A DNA stretch of 64,000 nucleotides from Aeromicrobium sp. PE09-221 (GTDB lineage: Bacteria; Actinomycetota; Actinomycetes; Propionibacteriales; Nocardioidaceae): positions 1 through 64,000 of the forward strand of contig NZ_MIJB01000003.1 of the NCBI RefSeq assembly GCF_002174305.1, given 5' to 3'. Within the stretch, counting starts at the first letter, position 1, and every line of letters starts with the position of its first letter. Of this stretch, positions 37,139-45,236 are shown in pieces. The position numbers were made by a program, and so were the translations under genes. Under the pieces are notes generated by a model, which saw only the letters and a list, made by a program, of their open reading frames with translations, made no database searches and was not told the origin of the DNA.

Positions 37139-37162
37139 GCTACGTCGACGGAGGTGAGCGCG

Positions 37163-38104
37163 GTGGAAACGGCACGAGAGCGTTCGCCGGCGACCAAGCG
37201 CGAGCACATCACCGGACACGCCTTCACCCTCGTGCAGTTGAGGTACTTCGCCGCGGCAGCCGAAGAGGGCACCATGACCGGCGCCTCGAAAGTGCTCATG
37301 GTGTCTCAGTCAGCGATCTCCACGGCGGTGGCACAACTCGAACACGAACTCGGCGTCCAGTTATTCGTCCGTCATCATGCCCGCGGCTTGACGCTGACGA
37401 CCGCCGGGGAGGACTTCCTGCGCGAGGTACGTCCCTTCCTGGCTCATGCGGCCGATCTCGAGGATTCGACCCGAGGGGTCGGCCGTGCCGTGGTGGGCGA
37501 CCTCGTCGTGGGCTGTTTCGCCACTCTCGCACCCTTTCGACTCCCACGGGCCATCGCCGCATTCGAGGAGCGATACTCCCGTGCCCGAGTACGCGTCATC
37601 GAGGGCCAGCACGCACAGCTCAAAGACTCACTGCGCGAGGGCCGCTGCGAGGTCGCGCTCATGTACGGCTATGACGTCGACGATCTCCATCACGCGGTCA
37701 TCGACTCGCTCGATCCGTACGTGATCGTACCTACGGATCACCGGCTCGCCGGTCGCGGATCCGTATCGCTGGAGGAGTTGGTCGAAGAGCCCATGGTGCT
37801 GCTCGACCTTCCCCACACCCGGGACTACTTCCTCTCGCTTTTCCGCGCTCGTGGTCTCAGCGAGCCCACCGTGCGGTTCCGCAGTCCCGGCTTCGAGACC
37901 GTGCGCTCGATGGTGGCGCACGGACAGGGCTTCGCGCTGCTCAACCAGCGACCCGCCAACGACCTCACCTATGACGGTGCCGCTGTTACAGCCGTGCAAC
38001 TTTCTGATGACATCCGCCCGCTCGACATCGTGGTGGCGTGGAGCGGAGCCACGCGCCGTACCCGGCGCGCGCAGGCATTTATCGACTTGATGCGTCACGG
38101 CTGA
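37163..38104 (+). CDS. LysR family transcriptional regulator
   Basis: This 313-residue regulator has an N-terminal winged helix (LVQLRYFAAAAEEGTMTGAS, VSQSAISTAVAQLEHELGVQ) and a periplasmic-binding-like effector domain (VVGDLVVGCFATLAPFRLPR onward). LysR regulators usually control adjacent genes in response to a metabolite. It precedes the MHS transporter on the same strand. An inverted-repeat sequence occurs before the transporter gene, before ridA and, in weaker form, before the flavin monooxygenase gene; this protein is the best candidate to bind it. Confidence 0.93.
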   Translation: METARERSPATKREHITGHAFTLVQLRYFAAAAEEGTMTGASKVLMVSQSAISTAVAQLEHELGVQLFVRHHARGLTLTTAGEDFLREVRPFLAHAADLEDSTRGVGRAVVGDLVVGCFATLAPFRLPRAIAAFEERYSRARVRVIEGQHAQLKDSLREGRCEVALMYGYDVDDLHHAVIDSLDPYVIVPTDHRLAGRGSVSLEELVEEPMVLLDLPHTRDYFLSLFRARGLSEPTVRFRSPGFETVRSMVAHGQGFALLNQRPANDLTYDGAAVTAVQLSDDIRPLDIVVAWSGATRRTRRAQAFIDLMRHG

Positions 38105-38142
38105 GCTTCTGCATTGGCATTGCCGATACAAGAAGCCAATTA

Positions 38143-38158
38143 ATCTTGTTTTACAGAT
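38143..38158 (+). promoter_or_regulatory. putative operator upstream of the transporter gene
   Basis: ATCTTGTTTTACAGAT lies 60 bp before the ATG at 38218. It differs by one extra base from the complement of the perfect dyad at 39599-39613. It is a candidate binding site for the LysR-type regulator encoded just upstream. Confidence 0.55.
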
Positions 38159-38217
38159 CCCATGGCTCAACTCACTATGGACTGAGCATTGCCCACGTCA
38201 CATCAGCGGAGTTGACC

Positions 38218-39588
38218 ATGCCCCAGGAAAATCGCGATCGCGAGAGCCGCGTCGACGACGAGTCGACCCAGGCCGGCCTACGCAAGAGTCTCGTCGCAGG
38301 CTCCGTAGGTGTCTTCGTCCACTGGTTCGACTGGGCGGTGTACGCCTACCTCGCTACGACGATGGCGAAGATCTTCTTCCCCGAGCAGGACGGCAGCGCC
38401 GGCCTGCTCTCGGTCTTCGCCGTGTTCGCCATCGCCTTCTTCGTCCGTCCCGTCGGGTCGGTGCTGTTCGGCTACATCGGCGACCGCTACGGCCGGAAGA
38501 AGACCCTGTCGATCGTCATCATCACGATGGCCGCCGGGACGCTCATGCTCGGCCTGCTGCCCTCCTACGACTCGGTCGGCATCCTCGCACCGATCCTGCT
38601 GGTCGTCGCGCGCATCATCCAAGGGCTCGCCGCCGGCGGCGAGTTCGGTTCAGCCGCCGCATTCCTGGCGGAGCATTCCCCCGCCAAGCGTCGCGGCTTC
38701 GGTTGCTCCTGGATCGAGTTCGGCTCGGTGCTCGGCTTCCTCGCGGCGTCCTTCGCCGTCTGGCTGCTCCACGCCGTCCTCACCGACGCCCAGGTGCTCG
38801 AGTGGGGTTGGCGGATCCCCTTCCTGCTGACCGTGCCCATGGCCTTCGTCGGCCTCTACATCCGCCTGAGGATCGAGGACACCCCCGAGTACCGGGCGCT
38901 CGAGAAGCTCCAGACCGTGGCCGAGCAGCCTGTGCGTGAGGTCTTCCGCAGCAATGGCAAGCAGTTCGCCCAGACCGTGGGCATCGAGACCTTCATGAAC
39001 GCCACGTTCTACATCGTCCTGGTCTATCTGCTGACCTATCAGGAGGAGATCGTCGGTCTCACCTCCACCCAGGCCGCGTTGCTGTCCTCCGTGGCCTCGC
39101 TGGTCGCCATCGGCATCATCCCGTTGTCGGGCATGGCCTCGGACCGCGTCGGACGCAAGCCCATCCTCCGGGCTGCCGGCGTGCTCCTCACCCTGGGTGC
39201 CGTTCCGCTGTTCATGCTCATGCGGACCGGCACGCTCAGCGCGGGCTTCATCGCCACCTTCGGCTTGGCGGCCATCCTCGCCCTCATCCTCGGCACCCAC
39301 GCCTCCACCGTCGCCGAGTTGTTCCCGACCCGCACGCGCCAGAGCGGACTGTCGATGGCCTACAGCGTCGCGGGTGCCTTCTTCGCCGGCACCCTGCCAT
39401 ATATCAACACCTATCTGATCGATGTCACCGGCAACGACCTCGTCCCGGCCTTCTCCCTCGTGGTGATCGGTCTCATCGGCCTCGTCACCGTCGCGACCAT
39501 TCCGGAGACCAAGGGGTCGGATCTGCTGCACGCCTCCGACCGCGCCGGGTCCTCGAGCCCCGATAACGAGGTCGTCGCGCGGCCTTAG
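38218..39588 (+). CDS. MFS transporter, metabolite:H+ symporter (MHS) type
   Basis: This 456-residue permease has twelve predicted membrane helices. VHWFDWAVYAYLATTMAKIF at helix 1 and PVGSVLFGYIGDRYGRKKTL at the helix 2-3 loop are signatures of the MHS group (KgtP, ShiA, ProP), which import organic acids, betaines or amino acids with protons. AAGGEFGSAAAFLAEHSPA is another conserved segment. The start is ATG 38218. The transporter probably imports the substrate of the RidA-DUF1028-M20 genes that follow. Confidence 0.93.
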   Translation: MPQENRDRESRVDDESTQAGLRKSLVAGSVGVFVHWFDWAVYAYLATTMAKIFFPEQDGSAGLLSVFAVFAIAFFVRPVGSVLFGYIGDRYGRKKTLSIVIITMAAGTLMLGLLPSYDSVGILAPILLVVARIIQGLAAGGEFGSAAAFLAEHSPAKRRGFGCSWIEFGSVLGFLAASFAVWLLHAVLTDAQVLEWGWRIPFLLTVPMAFVGLYIRLRIEDTPEYRALEKLQTVAEQPVREVFRSNGKQFAQTVGIETFMNATFYIVLVYLLTYQEEIVGLTSTQAALLSSVASLVAIGIIPLSGMASDRVGRKPILRAAGVLLTLGAVPLFMLMRTGTLSAGFIATFGLAAILALILGTHASTVAELFPTRTRQSGLSMAYSVAGAFFAGTLPYINTYLIDVTGNDLVPAFSLVVIGLIGLVTVATIPETKGSDLLHASDRAGSSSPDNEVVARP

Positions 39589-39598
39589 TCGCTCGATC

Positions 39599-39620
39599 AT
39601 CTGTAAAACAGATGCAATAG
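39599..39620. promoter_or_regulatory. perfect dyad operator upstream of ridA
   Basis: ATCTGTAAAACAGAT (39599-39613) is a perfect inverted repeat, ATCTGT-AAA-ACAGAT, followed by GCAATAG. It lies just past the transporter stop and 115 bp before ridA. The complementary strand reads TTGCATCTGTTTTACAGATG. It is the best-formed of three related sites. Confidence 0.65.
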
Positions 39621-39727
39621 GCCGGGATCATGTGTTGGACGAATAGCATGGTCCCGGCCGATGCTGTAACCACATCCACATCCGCCGCACCGGCGAGACG
39701 AAGCCGGCGAAGGGAGTCCGAAGACAT

Positions 39728-40192
39728 ATGGCCGCACACGAGGTGCCCGCCACCACGCACAGCATCGTCGCGGGAGGACATACCCGTATCCGCCCGTTCA
39801 ACACGCGCGATACGTACCCGGAGCAGAACCTGGACAACGACCTCTGCCAAGCGGTCGTCGCCGGTGACACGGTCTACGTCCGTGGACAAATCGGCCAGAA
39901 CCTCGACACCAGCGCGTCGGTCGGCATCGGCGACGTGGAGGCGCAGACCGAGCAAGCGATGAGCAATATCGAGATGCTCCTGCACGAGGCCGGCAGCAGC
40001 ATGGAGCACCTCGTGAAGCTGACGATCTACCTCATCGATCCGCGCTACCGCGAGACCGTCTACCGCACGATCGGCCGGTGGACCAAGGGCGTGCACCCCA
40101 TCTCCACCGGCCTCATCGTGTCGGCCCTGGCGCGCCCGGAGTGGCTCGTCGAGGTCGACGCGATCGCCGTAATCCCCGAGGGGGCGCAGTGA
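39728..40192 (+). CDS. RidA (YjgF/YER057c/UK114) family protein
   Basis: This 154-residue protein has the RidA fold. QAVVAGDTVYVRGQIGQNLD, IEMLLHEAGSSMEHLVKLTI and HPISTGLIVSALARPEWLVE are the conserved segments, including the active-site Arg and Glu. RidA enzymes hydrolyse reactive enamine/imine intermediates to ketoacids and ammonia. Its position with an M20 amidohydrolase and a DUF1028 gene suggests that it acts on an unstable nitrogen compound in a catabolic route. GGGAGTCCG precedes the ATG. Confidence 0.92.
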   Translation: MAAHEVPATTHSIVAGGHTRIRPFNTRDTYPEQNLDNDLCQAVVAGDTVYVRGQIGQNLDTSASVGIGDVEAQTEQAMSNIEMLLHEAGSSMEHLVKLTIYLIDPRYRETVYRTIGRWTKGVHPISTGLIVSALARPEWLVEVDAIAVIPEGAQ

Positions 40193-40857
40193 CCTTCTCC
40201 GTCCTCGGCACCGATGACACCGGTGCGGTCGGCATGGCCGTCACATCCTCGAGTCCAGCGGTCGCGGCACGATGCGTCCACCTGCGCCCCAGGATCGGCG
40301 GTGCTTCATCACAGAATGTCACCGACCCCCGCCTCGGTCCCGCGCTGCTCGACGCCCTGGAAGCGGGGGCCGAGCCGGAGAAGGCGCTCCAGAGCGTGAC
40401 CCGTGATCGCGAGCACATCGAGCATCGCCAGCTCACCGTTCTCGCGGCAGGTGGCGAGGGAGCCGCCTATTCCGGGGCCGCGTCGCTCGGCACCCATCAT
40501 GACGCCACGGGCGCCCATGTGGTGGCCGCCGGCAATATGCTCGCGACCCCTGAAGTGATCGATGCGGTCGTCACGGCCTTCGAGACATCGTCAGGCGAGC
40601 TGGAGACACGCCTCCTCACCGCACTCGAAGCGGGACTGGCCGCCGGCGGCGAAGCAGGTCCAGTGCACTCAGCGGGCCTGTCCGTGGTGCGCGACGTGGA
40701 CTGGCGGGTCACCGACCTGCGCGTGGACTGGCACGACGAGCCCATCGCCGAGCTGGGCCGCCTGGTCGAGCGGTGGATGCCGCAGCGCGACGACTATGTG
40801 ACCCGGGGCCTCGACCCCACCCAGGCACCGTCCTACGGAGTACCCGGCGATGAATGA
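40189..40857 (+). CDS. DUF1028 family protein (Ntn-hydrolase-like)
   Basis: This 222-residue protein begins VTFSVLGTDDTGAVGMAVTS, the typical DUF1028 start. TQSVTRDREHIEHRQLTVLA-like sequence and GTHHDATGAHVVAAGNMLAT follow. The family has an N-terminal-nucleophile-hydrolase-like fold, but no reaction is proven for it. The GTG overlaps the ridA stop by 4 bp, and its own end overlaps the M20 gene by 8 bp, so the three are tightly coupled and probably act together. After removal of an initiator Met the Thr at position 2 would be the candidate nucleophile; this is inference. Confidence 0.9.
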   Translation: MTFSVLGTDDTGAVGMAVTSSSPAVAARCVHLRPRIGGASSQNVTDPRLGPALLDALEAGAEPEKALQSVTRDREHIEHRQLTVLAAGGEGAAYSGAASLGTHHDATGAHVVAAGNMLATPEVIDAVVTAFETSSGELETRLLTALEAGLAAGGEAGPVHSAGLSVVRDVDWRVTDLRVDWHDEPIAELGRLVERWMPQRDDYVTRGLDPTQAPSYGVPGDE

Positions 40858-41986
40858 CCTCACGGGCCCCCGCGAACGAGTGGCGGCGCAGGTTCGCGCC
40901 GATACCGAGCGGCTCATCGCGTTATCGGAGCGGTTACACGCCCATCCGGAGATTGCCTGGCAGGAGCACCGCGCCGCCCGCTGGGTCGCCGAGCCGCTCG
41001 CCGACGCCGGATTCTCGGTAACGGAGAAGTATCTGGGCCTCGAGACGGCATTCCTCGCCACCTACGGCTCAGGGCCGTTCCGTCTCGGCCTCTGCGCGGA
41101 ATACGATGCGCTGCCCGGCCTCGGGCATGCCTGCGGCCACAACCTCATCTCGGCGATCACGGTCGGCGCCGCGCGTGCCCTCGCCCCGGTGGCCGATGAG
41201 CTCGGACTCACCATCGAGGTCTACGGCACGCCCGCGGAGGAGGGCGGCGGAGGCAAGATCGAGATGCTCGACCGGGGCGCGTTCGCAGGTCTGGACCTGG
41301 CGATGATGGCCCATCCGGCCCCTGTCGACGTCGCGGAGGCTCGTCCCTTCGCCGTCTCGCATTCCCATGTCTCCTACCGGGGGAAGTCGGCCCACGCCGC
41401 CGCCTACCCCGAACAGGGCGTTAACGCCGCAGATGCCTTCACAGTGGCGCAGGTGGCCATAGGCCTGTTGCGTCAACAGCTGCCCCCATCGGTGCGGGTA
41501 CACGGTGTCATGACCAATGGCGGCGAGGCGCCCAATGCCATTCCGGCGCATACCGAGGGCCGCTGGTACGTGCGCGCGGAATCGCTGGCTGAGCTTGCCG
41601 AGGTGGAGTCGAAGGTATGGCGGTGCTTCGAGGCCGGTGCGATCGCGACCGGAGCGGAGCTCACGATCGAGCCCGAGAGCAAACCGTATGCGGAGTTCCG
41701 TACCGATGAGGCGGCCCTCTCGGCCTATGTGGCGAATGCACGGCGCCTGGGCCGCGAGTTCGTGAGTGGTGCGGTGGCAGCACGGATGAACCGTGCGTCG
41801 ACCGATATGGGCAATGTGTCCCAGCTGGTGCCCGCGATCCATCCCTATGTGGGCATCAACTCGGGCTCGGCGTCGAATCACCAGCCTGAGTTCGCCGCAC
41901 ACTGCATCGGCCCCGATGCCGAGCGGGCGCTGTTCGACGCGGCCACCGCTCTGGCCTGGACCGCACTCGACACCGTCTCCGGCTGA
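40850..41986 (+). CDS. M20 family amidohydrolase (M20D, AbgB-like)
   Basis: This 378-residue zinc amidohydrolase is related to AbgB and N-acyl-amino-acid amidohydrolases. RLGLCAEYDALPGLGHACGH carries a metal His, EVYGTPAEEGGGGKIEMLD the catalytic Glu, and DLAMMAHPAP another metal His. SGSASNHQPEF near the C-terminus supplies a further His. The dimerisation domain begins at SYRGKSAHAAAYPEQGVNA. It would cleave an amide bond of the imported substrate. A convergent hairpin terminator follows the stop. Confidence 0.92.
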   Translation: MNDLTGPRERVAAQVRADTERLIALSERLHAHPEIAWQEHRAARWVAEPLADAGFSVTEKYLGLETAFLATYGSGPFRLGLCAEYDALPGLGHACGHNLISAITVGAARALAPVADELGLTIEVYGTPAEEGGGGKIEMLDRGAFAGLDLAMMAHPAPVDVAEARPFAVSHSHVSYRGKSAHAAAYPEQGVNAADAFTVAQVAIGLLRQQLPPSVRVHGVMTNGGEAPNAIPAHTEGRWYVRAESLAELAEVESKVWRCFEAGAIATGAELTIEPESKPYAEFRTDEAALSAYVANARRLGREFVSGAVAARMNRASTDMGNVSQLVPAIHPYVGINSGSASNHQPEFAAHCIGPDAERALFDAATALAWTALDTVSG

Positions 41987-42030
41987 CCCCTTCTCGGTCT
42001 CCGGCCGAGCGGCGTCCGCCACGGACATGA

Positions 42031-42072
42031 CGGAGGGGGAGGGATCGCTACTACGCGATCCCTCCCCCTCCG
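42031..42072. terminator. bidirectional terminator, 18-bp stem
   Basis: CGGAGGGGGAGGGATCGC and GCGATCCCTCCCCCTCCG form a perfect stem around TACTAC between the convergent M20 and flavin monooxygenase genes. It can stop transcription from both sides. Confidence 0.85.
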
Positions 42073-42083
42073 GTCACCGTGGG

Positions 42084-43340
42084 TCAGTGCCGGGAGCGAC
42101 GATAAGCCAGGTAGCCGCGCTGGGTGCCGATGTGATCGGCGATGTGCTTGGCATCGTGCCACACGCCCCAGATGAAGCTGGACCCTCGACGCGAGAGCCA
42201 GGGCAACCCGACGAAGTAGACGCCGGGCTCCGCGGACACCCCGCGCCGGTGCGAGGGCCGCCCGGACTCGTCGAGGGCGCCGACCTGCAACCACGAGTAG
42301 TCGGTGGCGAAGCCGGTGGCCCAGAGGATCGTGGTGACACCGGCCGCCCGGAGATCCAGTTCGCGCACCGGCTCGGTCATGCACGCCGGATCGGGGAGGA
42401 ACTCACGCGCCTGCGGCTCCTCGGGAAGATCAAGGCCGTTGCGTTCGAGGTACGCATCGGCAGCATCGAGAAGCTCGAGATACTTGGCATCACCCTCGGC
42501 GATAGTGCGAGCCAGGTCGTCGGCGAAGCCGAGAGTGCCGTCACGGTAGGTGCCGGTGAGGCCGACGAGGGTGATCCCCTTGGCCGCGAGCTCACGGAAG
42601 TCGACCGTCCGTCCGCCGTGAGCGCCGCTCACCGCGATCGTGACGTGTTCGGCACCCTTGGGCGGGGTCTCGGCATCCCAGCGACCGAGCACACCGAGCC
42701 ACCAGCAGAAGTCGCGATCGCGGTAGCTGCGTGGTGGACGGTCGTGAGGCCCCACCGAGAGGTAGACCTCGCGTCCGGCAGCCCTCAGCTCGTCGGCGAT
42801 CTGCACGCCGGACGACCCGGCACCGACCACGAGCACGCCGCCTTCCGGCAGCTGATCGGGGTTTCTATAGGAGCTGGAATGCAGTTGGTGCACAGGGGCG
42901 TCGCGGGGCACGATCGGCGGGATCACCGGCTTCTGGAAAGGGCCGGTCGCGGCGACGACGAAGCGTGCGGTATAGGTGCCGTCGCTCGTCTCCGCGGTGA
43001 AGCCCGGGCCACCGGGGTTGCGACGCACCGAGGTCACCTCGACCCCCGTGCGAATCGGCGCGTCGAACTTCTGCGCATAGTCGGCGAAGTACTGCGCCAC
43101 CTGCTCCTTCGGCGCGAAATCATCGGGCCCGACCTCGGCGAACTCCATGCTCGGGAATCGGTCGTGCCAGGCCGGTCCATTGGCCACCAGCGAGTCCCAG
43201 CGCTCTGAGCGCCAACGCTCGGCGATGCGTCCCCGTTCGAGCACGACATGCCGCACTCCGCCGGAGCTCAGGTGCTCGCTCATCGCGACACCGGCCTGAC
43301 CGCCGCCGACGACGAGGACCTCCACGTCGTGCTTCGACAT
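42084..43340 (-). CDS. flavin-containing monooxygenase-like oxidoreductase
   Basis: This 418-residue class B flavoprotein has VLVVGGGQAGVAMSEHLSSG for FAD near the N-terminus. VLVVGAGSSGVQIADELRAA for NAD(P)H lies at about residues 165-185, and TILWATGFATDYSWLQ is the C-terminal ATG motif. The FxGxxxHxxxY/F fingerprint of classical Baeyer-Villiger and FMO enzymes is not clear: here DAPVHQLHSSSYRN stands in its place, so it belongs to the CzcO-like group. It is convergent with the M20 gene and may share its operator, so it may act on the same compound. Confidence 0.88.
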   Translation of the reverse strand: MSKHDVEVLVVGGGQAGVAMSEHLSSGGVRHVVLERGRIAERWRSERWDSLVANGPAWHDRFPSMEFAEVGPDDFAPKEQVAQYFADYAQKFDAPIRTGVEVTSVRRNPGGPGFTAETSDGTYTARFVVAATGPFQKPVIPPIVPRDAPVHQLHSSSYRNPDQLPEGGVLVVGAGSSGVQIADELRAAGREVYLSVGPHDRPPRSYRDRDFCWWLGVLGRWDAETPPKGAEHVTIAVSGAHGGRTVDFRELAAKGITLVGLTGTYRDGTLGFADDLARTIAEGDAKYLELLDAADAYLERNGLDLPEEPQAREFLPDPACMTEPVRELDLRAAGVTTILWATGFATDYSWLQVGALDESGRPSHRRGVSAEPGVYFVGLPWLSRRGSSFIWGVWHDAKHIADHIGTQRGYLAYRRSRH

Positions 43341-43452
43341 CTTTCACCTCCACTGTGCCCATACCGCTCGGCGTGGGCTCGACCGCGCTTTCCGCGCTTG
43401 CATCGATTCTCGGAGCCCTCACTAGAAGTGTCCAACAGATACTACTGAGCTT

Positions 43453-43471
43453 TTGCATCGCTTCAGCAGAT
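43453..43471 (+). promoter_or_regulatory. putative third operator, upstream of the flavin monooxygenase gene
   Basis: TTGCATCGCTTCAGCAGAT has the same frame of matches (TTGCATC, TT, CAGAT) as the dyad at 39599-39620 read on its other strand. It lies about 112 bp upstream of the ATG at 43340. The match is weaker than for the other two sites. Confidence 0.4.
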
Positions 43472-43748: not shown

Positions 43749-44933
43749 TCACGGGGCCGTGACCTCCATGCTCTCGGCGGCATCACCCAGCCGGTTCGTC
43801 TCGAGGGTCCTCAGGAATCCGGGGGCGGACGGATCGATGACCTGGATGAGGGAAGCGCGCGAGGGCGGCTCGGCGTCCTCGCCGTAGCTCACGTCCGGGA
43901 CCAGCCCGAGCAGGTCGACCAGACCGAGGGAGTGCCGGGCCTCGCTGATGCCCTCGCGAGAGAGGTCTCCCTCCTCGATCGCCTTCTCCAGGATCTTCGA
44001 CTGCAGCATGGCGACCGCGTAGCCGTAGCTGAAGTAGACACTCGGGTTCTGTGCCGGGGCGTACGTGTCGCGATCCTCGATGAGCTGCTTCATGCCCTCG
44101 GAGTCCTCGTCGCCCCAGGGCGCGGCGAACATCGTGACGATGGTTCCTTCGAGCGCCTGGGCGACCGGGGTCGGCGTGCCGTCGGGGGTGCCGTCACTGG
44201 TCATCAGCTGCTCGATGAAAGCCGGTCCGAAGAACAGCCACTGGGGCGTGAAGCCCTGACTGGCCGCGGTGCCCACGATCGGGCCGGACGCCGACGGAAG
44301 TCCGACGACCACCACGACATCGGCACCGGAAGACTTGAGGCTCTGGACCTGCGCGGTGAAGTCGGTGTCGCCGGCCTTGTACGCCTGGCGGCCGGCGTCC
44401 TCGAACTCGTACTCGTCCAGGGCGGCCTCGAAGCCGCGGATGCCGTCGGCTCCGAGCTCGTCGTTCTGGTAGACGATGCCGACCTTGAGGTCCTTCTCGC
44501 CACCCTCTGTCACGTAGTCGATGCCATTGGCGACGTCGAGGGAGTACGGCGTGCCGAGCGGAGCCAGCGTGGGATCCACGCTCCAGATGGAATCCATCGA
44601 CTGCGGCGTGCTGATGAGGTCGTCGCGCGCCAGAAGGCCCTGGATGGCCTTCGTGGTGGGGCTGCCGAAGGAGGTCAGCAGCGCCGACTGGTCCTTGAGC
44701 TCGTTGTACGACTGGACGTGGAGCTGGGTCTGGTAGCCAGCATCCTTGTCGTCGAAGTCCACCGTCCACCCATCGATCCCGCCGCGATCGTTGAACGCTT
44801 CCCAGAACACACGCATGCCCTCGACGTTGTTCTTGCTCAGCGCTGCCGCTGGACCGCTGGTGGCCGAGATCGACCCGATGGTGATGACCTTGTTGTCGAC
44901 GTCGACGCCCGGACCGCCGGAGACGTCACCCAT
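43749..44933 (-). CDS. branched-chain amino acid-type ABC substrate-binding protein, signal peptide lost
   Basis: This Peripla_BP_6-type binding protein (VITIGSISATSGPAAALSKN, GMRVFWEAFNDRGGIDGW, KVGIVYQNDELGADGIRG, SSGADVVVVVGLPSASGP) is about 394 residues from its first Met. Such proteins are exported lipoproteins, but here no signal peptide or lipobox exists: the conserved mature region starts almost at once (MGDVSGGPGVDVDNKV). The frame is open upstream through a livF fragment to 45236, so a chimera of 495 residues could be made. Either product would stay in the cytoplasm and is probably non-functional for uptake. Confidence 0.82.
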   Translation of the reverse strand: MGDVSGGPGVDVDNKVITIGSISATSGPAAALSKNNVEGMRVFWEAFNDRGGIDGWTVDFDDKDAGYQTQLHVQSYNELKDQSALLTSFGSPTTKAIQGLLARDDLISTPQSMDSIWSVDPTLAPLGTPYSLDVANGIDYVTEGGEKDLKVGIVYQNDELGADGIRGFEAALDEYEFEDAGRQAYKAGDTDFTAQVQSLKSSGADVVVVVGLPSASGPIVGTAASQGFTPQWLFFGPAFIEQLMTSDGTPDGTPTPVAQALEGTIVTMFAAPWGDEDSEGMKQLIEDRDTYAPAQNPSVYFSYGYAVAMLQSKILEKAIEEGDLSREGISEARHSLGLVDLLGLVPDVSYGEDAEPPSRASLIQVIDPSAPGFLRTLETNRLGDAAESMEVTAP

Positions 44934-45236
44934 CGGCGTGCTTGCGTGCGTGGGTTGAACGCGCCGAGGGTCAGGTTCTCCGCGACGGTGAGGTCGGTGA
45001 AGATCCTTCGTCCCTCGAGCGACCTTGCCCCGGAGGAAGGACAGGAGACCACCGAGAGAACGGAGGATCGTCGACTTGCCGGCTCCGTTGGCTCCGAGCA
45101 AAGCCACGGACTCGCCGGCATCGACAGTGAGGTCGACATGCTGGACTCCGACGACGGATCCCCCATAGGTGACCCGCAATCCGGCAACGCTGAGTAGCGC
45201 GTCCGACCCGTGGTCGGCGCGCTGATGACCGCGCAT
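44934..45236 (-). pseudogene. livF-type ATPase fragment with internal deletion, joined to the binding protein gene
   Basis: The first part reads LSVAGLRVTYGGSVVGVQHV and LLGANGAGKSTILRSLGGLL (Walker A) in the frame that continues into the binding protein. At about 45025 the likeness to LivF jumps to the next frame, SLEGRRIFTDLTVAENLTLG, a segment that normally lies about 25 residues further on. The ABC signature, Walker B and all permease genes are missing. At least one deletion removed the middle, and another removed the rest of the transporter together with the signal peptide of the binding protein. Confidence 0.75.

Follow-up and report, generated by a model that had tools for sequence, protein, structure and literature searches.

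The six-gene cluster described here raises two questions: which compound do its products take up and degrade, and are its genes switched through a common operator? The cluster lies in a 64 kb window of Aeromicrobium sp. PE09-221 (the window being the whole stretch of DNA analysed; 68.6% G+C, on contig C51 of a genome of 3,999,456 bases, or 4.0 Mb). It encodes a LysR-type regulator, a transporter of the metabolite/H+ symporter (MHS) type, a RidA-like protein, a DUF1028 protein, a peptidase of family M20, and a flavin monooxygenase (FMO). An earlier interpretation made from the letters alone (hereafter the sequence-only reading) took the cluster for a probable undescribed catabolic regulon. The word "undescribed" did not hold: the enzyme set matches hinFLHG, the imidazoleacetate branch of histamine catabolism. 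Judging from sequence comparisons, the cluster is quite probably a module for the utilisation of imidazole-4-acetate (ImAA). It would correspond to hinFLHG of Pseudomonas, which form the lower part of histamine catabolism, and be equipped with a HinK-like regulator and a transporter of its own. A pathway of this kind is already known; what would be new are its actinobacterial variant, the function of DUF1028, and the operator architecture.

Gene coordinates, together with Pfam and NCBIfam profiles, placed all six genes where they had been described:

37154..38104, + strand: lysR, HinK-like regulator (Pfam HTH_1 and LysR_substrate; GTG start as called)
38218..39588, + strand: transporter of the major facilitator superfamily (MFS), MHS type (TIGR00883 metabolite/H+ symporter, 373.9 bits)
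39728..40192, + strand: RidA/L-PSP protein, proposed HinL equivalent (Pfam PF01042)
40189..40857, + strand: DUF1028 protein, proposed HinH equivalent (PF06267, 210.7 bits)
40850..41986, + strand: peptidase M20, a TIGR01891-type amidohydrolase (TIGR01891, 191.1 bits; cut-off 153.75)
42084..43340, - strand: flavin monooxygenase/oxidoreductase (FMO), proposed HinF equivalent (TIGR04046-like, 354.5 bits)

The helix-turn-helix (HTH) match of the regulator runs from residue 27 onward, and a later start than the called GTG is possible. RidA and DUF1028 overlap by 4 bp and DUF1028 and M20 by 8 bp; from these overlaps we read ridA, DUF1028, and M20 as one transcription unit. The FMO gene lies on the opposite strand, facing them.

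HinFLHG convert ImAA into aspartic acid (PMC8231116). In PMC6467879, HinF is described as an FAD-monooxygenase (EC 1.14.13.5), HinL as an enamine deaminase, HinH as an amidase that carries no EC number there, and HinG as an amidase (EC 3.5.1.8). An FAD monooxygenase, a RidA-like protein, the HinH amidase (equated with DUF1028 by locus-tag synteny), and an M20-type enzyme are all present in the cluster, and the order FMO-RidA-DUF1028-M20 is that of hinF-L-H-G. The same four enzyme classes in the same order make up the hin2 operon hinFLHG of Pseudomonas putida U and the genes PA5393-PA5390 of P. aeruginosa (PMC8231116, PMC6467879). Unlike the Pseudomonas genes, those of the window are split over two transcription units, include an M20 of another subfamily, and have a transporter and a regulator adjacent to them; moreover, the upstream element of the operator described below was not found in the proteobacterial loci that were scanned upstream of FMO.

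The equation of HinH with DUF1028 comes from Brevibacterium. According to a 2021 review, authors writing in 2018 held the hin genes to be absent from sequenced Gram-positive bacteria (PMC8231116). A putative histamine pathway was then found in Brevibacterium in 2019, in strains that grew on histamine, with the role of these genes in growth left unproven by the authors (PMC6467879). The locus tags given there for strain L261 (HinI 10895, HinF 10890, HinL 10880, HinH 10875, and HinD 10860), if tags step by five, fit position by position the eight-gene order of a different Brevibacterium (locus L060), which reads AspA-FMO-LysR-RidA-DUF1028-M20-MHS-ALDH (ALDH, aldehyde dehydrogenase). HinH would therefore be the DUF1028 protein. 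The authors placed HinG on an ArgE-like gene outside the cluster, EB834_09805 (PMC6467879), and the M20 gene inside it seems a better candidate for the HinG role. New with respect to the published pathway would be DUF1028 as HinH, an M20 that is not orthologous to HinG, the MHS transporter, and a two-element operator. Among the papers listed by the literature searches, outside of which most subscription papers lay, none described the operator or connected DUF1028 by name with the pathway.

Comparison with other genomes covered 82 loci, namely those of the best 80 of at least 509 confirmed DUF1028 relatives (from a search with a three-protein alignment), one relative from the same genus, and one from the same order. 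An M20 of the actinobacterial type is encoded in 53 of them; the 29 loci without it are all proteobacterial by title. Genes were called by codon usage, as open-frame clustering was misled by false frames in G+C-rich DNA. RidA adjoins DUF1028 in 79 of the 82 loci, which bears out the coupling of these two genes that had been proposed from the window; an FMO is present in 75 loci and adjoins RidA in 53. The remaining steps of the ImAA/histamine route are covered by genes that flank the core in other genomes: ALDH (44 loci), class III aminotransferase (25), aspartase/fumarase-family lyase (18), APC permease (17), and copper amine oxidase (12). These families were assigned with Pfam on one representative each, and Pfam does not separate aspartase from fumarase; a plasmid annotation names the lyase aspartate ammonia-lyase. 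An aminotransferase, an amine oxidase, or an oxidoreductase resembling trimethylamine dehydrogenase (TMADH) occurs in 32 of the 53 loci with the actinobacterial M20 and in 11 of the 29 others, and MHS genes occur in 29 and none, respectively. An annotated Arthrobacter plasmid carries ALDH, primary-amine oxidase, LysR, FMO, RidA, DUF1028, M20, and aspartate ammonia-lyase together, while the order on a Pseudonocardia plasmid is LysR-MFS-FMO-RidA-DUF1028-M20-aspartate ammonia-lyase.

Based on these findings, we propose that the MHS protein acts as an ImAA/H+ symporter that imports ImAA, the ring of which would be oxygenated to imidazolone-acetate by the flavin monooxygenase (HinF; imidazoleacetate 4-monooxygenase, EC 1.14.13.5). 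DUF1028 (HinH), as an amidohydrolase of the N-terminal nucleophile (Ntn) type with an N-terminal threonine, would open the lactam ring to yield N-formimino-L-aspartate. From this product the RidA-family protein (HinL) would release ammonia as an N-formiminoaspartate deiminase, leaving N-formyl-L-aspartate, which the M20 enzyme, in the place of HinG, would deformylate to L-aspartate. Finally, an aspartate ammonia-lyase encoded elsewhere would convert L-aspartate into fumarate. The logic of import, oxygenation, amide cleavage, and imine handling that had been outlined from the window fits this gene content; the substrates suggested with it (N-acyl amino acids, ureides, pterin- or folate-like amides) give way to ImAA through the match to hinFLHG.

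The predicted structure of the DUF1028 protein, a confident model (pLDDT 95.3), has an Ntn-like fold. Its best solved relative is SPO2555 (PDB 2imh), a DUF1028 protein with no function given, which shares the Pfam family and the fold but only 32% identity. The next Foldseek matches are proteasome and HslV chains (E 5e-5 to 4e-4). Of the 83 DUF1028 proteins at hand 40 were aligned, and all 40 begin with Met1-Thr2; such an invariant Thr2 would suit a predicted N-terminal threonine nucleophile after putative removal of Met1. We tentatively assign the opening of the imidazolone ring to DUF1028 and the step after it to RidA. In histidine breakdown, an imidazolone ring is opened by HutI, an unrelated metal enzyme.

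The RidA proteins of these loci form a near-invariant subfamily, in which many positions are identical in 83 of 83 sequences and position 140, which we take to be the site of the catalytic Arg in archetypal RidA, is Leu in 82 of 83. A RidA with Leu140 and a nearly frozen sequence points to a pathway enzyme. The sequence-only reading had it clean up a reactive enamine or imine: imine handling fits, while clean-up is doubtful for such a protein. The chemistry of this subfamily may not be that of RidA.

The M20 of the actinobacterial type occurs in 53 of the 82 loci and an ArgE-type M20 in 25, both being found together in a single locus (L064). No orthology of the window M20 to HinG was found in a comparison with the ArgE-like protein of locus L073, taken as the HinG type: the match covered 93 aa at 26% identity (E 0.013), and the two were not alignable over their length. 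From these sequences, the deformylase has probably been replaced in actinobacteria by an M20 of another subfamily.

The regulator also leads to the histamine pathway. Its best relatives in the PDB are 6m5f and 3fzv (E about 5e-66), followed by 2ql3, an uncharacterised LysR domain of Rhodococcus (6e-32), and OxyR (6e-23). The entry 6m5f, retrieved with a model of the window protein (mean pLDDT 87.2), is titled HinK of P. aeruginosa (PA0218), a member of the same LysR family that shares 36-37% identity across the protein; among solved structures, HinK is the closest to the window regulator by a wide margin. Binding of HinK to the promoters of hinD and hinF in the presence of ImAA has been reported (PMC8231116), and by analogy the window LysR may bind DNA in response to ImAA.

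A LysR activator is expected to use a recognition site and, about three helical turns away, an activation site that overlaps the -35 box. Three sites resembling one another had been pointed out in the window, ATCTTGTTTTACAGAT (38143-38158), ATCTGTAAAACAGAT (39599-39613), and TTGCATCGCTTCAGCAGAT (43453-43471), and all three are there to the letter. They are real but play unlike roles: the one before the transporter is a downstream element with its partner overlooked, whereas the other two are upstream elements. The second element, ATCTGTTGGACAG, overlaps a -35-like box and lies 31 bp downstream of the palindrome; in the comparison across loci it reads ATCTGTTGGACAGAT. Upstream elements (RBS) and downstream elements (ABS) are distributed as follows, with scores from a position weight matrix (PWM):

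38113..38127, + strand: RBS of the MHS promoter, ATTGGCATTGCCGAT; weak (PWM 21.4), the third distinct promoter in 64 kb, missed in the sequence-only reading
38144..38158, + strand: ABS of the MHS promoter, TCTTGTTTTACAGAT; exactly 31 bp past the RBS, the first of the three sites pointed out
39599..39613, + strand: RBS of the ridA promoter, ATCTGTAAAACAGAT; the sole exact ATCTG-N5-CAGAT of the genome and the top score of the window (PWM 40.4), the second site pointed out
39630..39644, + strand: ABS of the ridA promoter, ATGTGTTGGACGAAT; 31 bp past the RBS
43457..43471, - strand: RBS of the FMO promoter, ATCTGCTGAAGCGAT; PWM 37.7, 31 bp from the ABS, inside the third site pointed out
43426..43440, - strand: ABS of the FMO promoter, ATCTGTTGGACACTT; missed in the sequence-only reading
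43406..43411, - strand: GAGAAT, a possible -10 box for FMO, with TTGGAC (43435-43430) 18 bp away

Each of the three promoters thus has two elements at a spacing of exactly 31 bp. The MHS pair is the weakest; by a count made by eye, its elements differ from the consensus at 3 and 5 positions. In the FMO promoter, TTGGAC within the ABS, 18 bp, and the GAGAAT block resemble a -35/-10 pair; an aggat block reaches at least 50% conservation across the 29 promoters of other loci on which the matrix was trained. No clear -10 was seen in the ridA promoter. The ABS core ATSTGTTGGAC occurs at 4 places in the genome, 2 of them inside the cluster, against 1.1 expected. The two places outside the cluster sit in long stop-free frames, as real sites do too, so that such a frame is no guide to whether they are coding.

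The bare motif was rejected as evidence by itself, its counts in genome and window being ordinary. An exact ATCTG-N5-CAGAT is found at 1 place in the genome against 0.83 expected from base composition (0 for a reversed control pattern), and up to one mismatch is met at 25 places against about 34 expected (6 for the control); the window holds 1 such match, and 75 of 100 shuffles held at least one. What sets the motif apart is its position in other genomes. With up to one mismatch, it is present in 35 of the 99 regions that precede FMO or RidA in the 53 actinobacterial loci, window excluded, against 4 of the 470 regions that precede unlabelled genes there (regions under 200 bases were dropped beforehand), while 30 dinucleotide shuffles of the 99 regions gave a mean of 0.83 and a maximum of 3 with the motif. 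Frequent occurrence in unrelated promoters, which had been named as the observation that would count against the operator, is therefore not what these loci display.

Pairs of both elements at offset 31 with at most 5 mismatches were found in 29 of the 99 regions, in 3 of the 470 others, and in none of 30 shuffles. Other offsets from 16 to 60 gave at most 6 of 99 (6 at offset 55), and the 3 matches among the 470 were all at offset 31. When offsets of 28-35 were scanned, all 35 listed regions (at most 5 mismatches in all; 2 in the window) were best at 31, including 4 that precede other labelled genes, namely a permease, an aminotransferase, an aspartase-type gene, and lysR. A matrix built from 29 pairs of other genomes ranked the three cluster promoters first in the window: 39599+ (40.4), 43471- (37.7), and, clearly weaker, the MHS promoter at 38113+ (21.4), the score of 26.0 at 39644- being a shadow of the palindrome. 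The next scores were 10.3 (again a shadow) and 8.5. This matrix is not wholly independent, as the motif used to choose its training set had come from the window. The genome has 24 further RBS places with up to one mismatch; 15 of these were checked and none had an ABS 31 bp away in either direction (8-15 of 15 mismatches). The palindrome is very probably a real operator, because the same sequence precedes the same genes in many actinobacteria, with a partner at 31 bp.

We propose that a LysR tetramer would sit on the RBS and on the ABS 31 bp downstream that overlaps the -35-like box, and that binding of ImAA would alter the contact between LysR and the ABS, turning on the promoters of MHS, of ridA-DUF1028-M20, and of FMO. 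The claim that a shared operator ties six genes together is thus kept for three transcription units with five of the genes; lysR is adjacent to them, and its promoter has no site among the top 12 matrix matches in the window. This last finding, with its lack of any sign of autoregulation and with LysR binding itself a prediction, is what would favour another regulator as the owner of the sites. We regard such a regulator as very unlikely: the motif is a T-N11-A dyad, the LysR-type consensus (PMC10912698), its two copies stand 31 bp apart with one over a -35-like box, and a member of the (broad) LysR cluster lies within the flanks of 47 of the 53 loci with the actinobacterial M20.

If the cluster degrades ImAA, where does ImAA come from? 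The search of the Aeromicrobium genome for a histamine-oxidising front end (HinC aminotransferase, copper amine oxidase, or histamine dehydrogenase) found none, although an unrelated enzyme is possible. The genome has no copper amine oxidase (PF01179), its best match to a HinC-type aminotransferase reaches 39% over residues 46-374 of 477 only, and its best match to the TMADH-like protein, a query that is presumably a histamine dehydrogenase, reaches 30%. Its likeliest role is the scavenging of ImAA made by others, and it may import ImAA itself. For the last step, a protein of the aspartase type is encoded on contig C106, with 65% identity to the aspartase-type protein of the Amycolatopsis locus L017, in a gene that adjoins open frames resembling amino-acid biosynthesis genes; from its sequence we infer an aspartate ammonia-lyase and not a fumarase.

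The missing front end is one reason to consider a different imidazole, or another small N-heterocyclic acid, as the substrate, with ImAA a mere analogue. Proteobacterial sets of RidA, DUF1028, and ArgE with quinone oxidoreductase, glutathione S-transferase (GST), dehydroquinase-like, and hydroxypyruvate-reductase genes likewise suggest that the core may be re-used. We consider this improbable, given the HinK-like regulator and the amine oxidase, ALDH, and aspartase-type genes that stand beside the core on the Arthrobacter plasmid, in Brevibacterium L060, and in Amycolatopsis L017, L020, and L021. The original idea of an undescribed regulon for N-acyl amino acids, ureides, or pteridine amides drew on a shared operator that does exist and on the hydrolase-like character of M20 and DUF1028; the gene-for-gene match to hinFLHG, together with the neighbouring histamine genes, makes it highly improbable. 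A nearer competitor keeps the pathway and swaps or shares its middle steps, so that RidA/HinL acts on the imidazolone/hydroxyimidazole product (tautomerisation, ring hydration), while the bond cleaved by DUF1028 is the formimino bond or a C-N bond further down the route. Leu140 at the presumed site of the catalytic Arg in 82 of 83 RidA proteins means that deiminase activity is not assured, and the published names, an amidase without an EC number for HinH and an enamine deaminase for HinL, would allow such an exchange (PMC6467879). It is nevertheless the less likely arrangement, although one to be taken seriously, as an Ntn amidohydrolase fits an amide (lactam) bond better than a formimine, and RidA chemistry fits a C=N bond.

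Several points weigh against the assignment to ImAA and its switch. The basis for equating the cluster with hinFLHG is gene order, published annotation, and the spacing of locus tags in a different strain. Neither the FMO nor the MHS transporter reaches the cut-off of its nearest NCBIfam model (498.35 for TIGR04046 and 443.45 for TIGR00883), the likeness of DUF1028 to Ntn proteases is distant (TM scores of about 0.4-0.5), and the M20 failed to align with the HinG type. With no front end seen in this genome, histamine may not serve as a substrate itself. The affinity of HinK for ImAA is low as measured, 1.56 mM (PMC8231116). On the operator side, the second element was derived from the same loci in which it was counted, so that this count is not blind (the guard being the comparison with other offsets and other regions), and 70 of the 99 regions have no pair at up to 5 mismatches, probably in part because ridA is often inside an operon. 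Finally, a scan confined to the upstream element, ahead of 25 FMO genes from loci without the actinobacterial M20, gave no match with fewer than 2 mismatches (best 2-4, with 2 in three cases), a result that lends no support to this element as a general HinK site.

With these points set against it, ImAA utilisation remains our preferred reading. We see about an even chance for a further-reaching one, in which DUF1028 represents a new class of Ntn threonine hydrolase, acts by opening the imidazolone ring and, together with the non-orthologous M20 and a HinK-like RBS-31 bp-ABS switch, forms a free-standing ImAA-scavenging regulon independent of histamine oxidation. DUF1028, a Pfam family of unknown function, would thereby gain a specific, testable reaction in a named pathway, and imidazoleacetate catabolism would be extended into many actinobacteria. 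The pair of elements would provide a precise candidate operator for a metabolite switch of actinobacteria, and the M20 suggests that the formylaspartate deformylase of these actinobacteria is a different enzyme from HinG.

The distribution of the cluster is patchy. DUF1028 was found in 2 of 37 genomes of the genus (this one and G036; some are incomplete) and in 6 of 58 relatives searched. Identities to a locus of another member of the Nocardioidaceae (L012) are 73% for DUF1028, 86% for RidA, 82% for M20 and MHS, and 74% for LysR and FMO; those to a relative from the same order (G045) are 59% for DUF1028, 76% for RidA, 70% for M20, 47% for LysR, and 75% for FMO. The FMO, unlike most of the window proteins, is about equally close to both. 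Horizontal acquisition is possible, given the patchiness and the higher identity of most proteins to L012.

Variants of the neighbourhood were also observed. Eight proteobacterial loci (L095, L097, L098, L099, L058, L073, L082, and L084) have RidA-DUF1028-ArgE sets near an ABC transporter, to which quinone oxidoreductase, GST, type II dehydroquinase-like, hydroxypyruvate reductase, or PhyH genes are added in varying parts; this core possibly serves another substrate there. In L096 (a Klebsiella plasmid), L012, L014, L019, L039, L040, and L075, the neighbourhood includes a GMC oxidoreductase and an NCS1 permease, and in several cases an ALDH; such variants would be consistent with an alcohol, for instance imidazole-ethanol, as the entry compound. 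Nine loci (L012, L023, L037, L038, L055, L063, L065, L070, and L087) share an Amidohydro_3 protein, which in 6 of them adjoins an NCS1 permease.

A single open frame of the window (43749-45236, - strand), which lies upstream of the FMO promoter, combines a periplasmic-binding-protein domain with the first part of an ABC ATPase (profile positions 2-52 of 137). A transporter of the branched-chain type may have decayed or undergone fusion here, and an alternative later start without the ATPase part is possible. Meanwhile, DUF1028 relatives were found on 267 of 72,556 plasmid records in PLSDB (105 from Klebsiella and 22 from Rhizobium), all with less than 60% identity to the window protein; by these counts, the family is often plasmid-borne.

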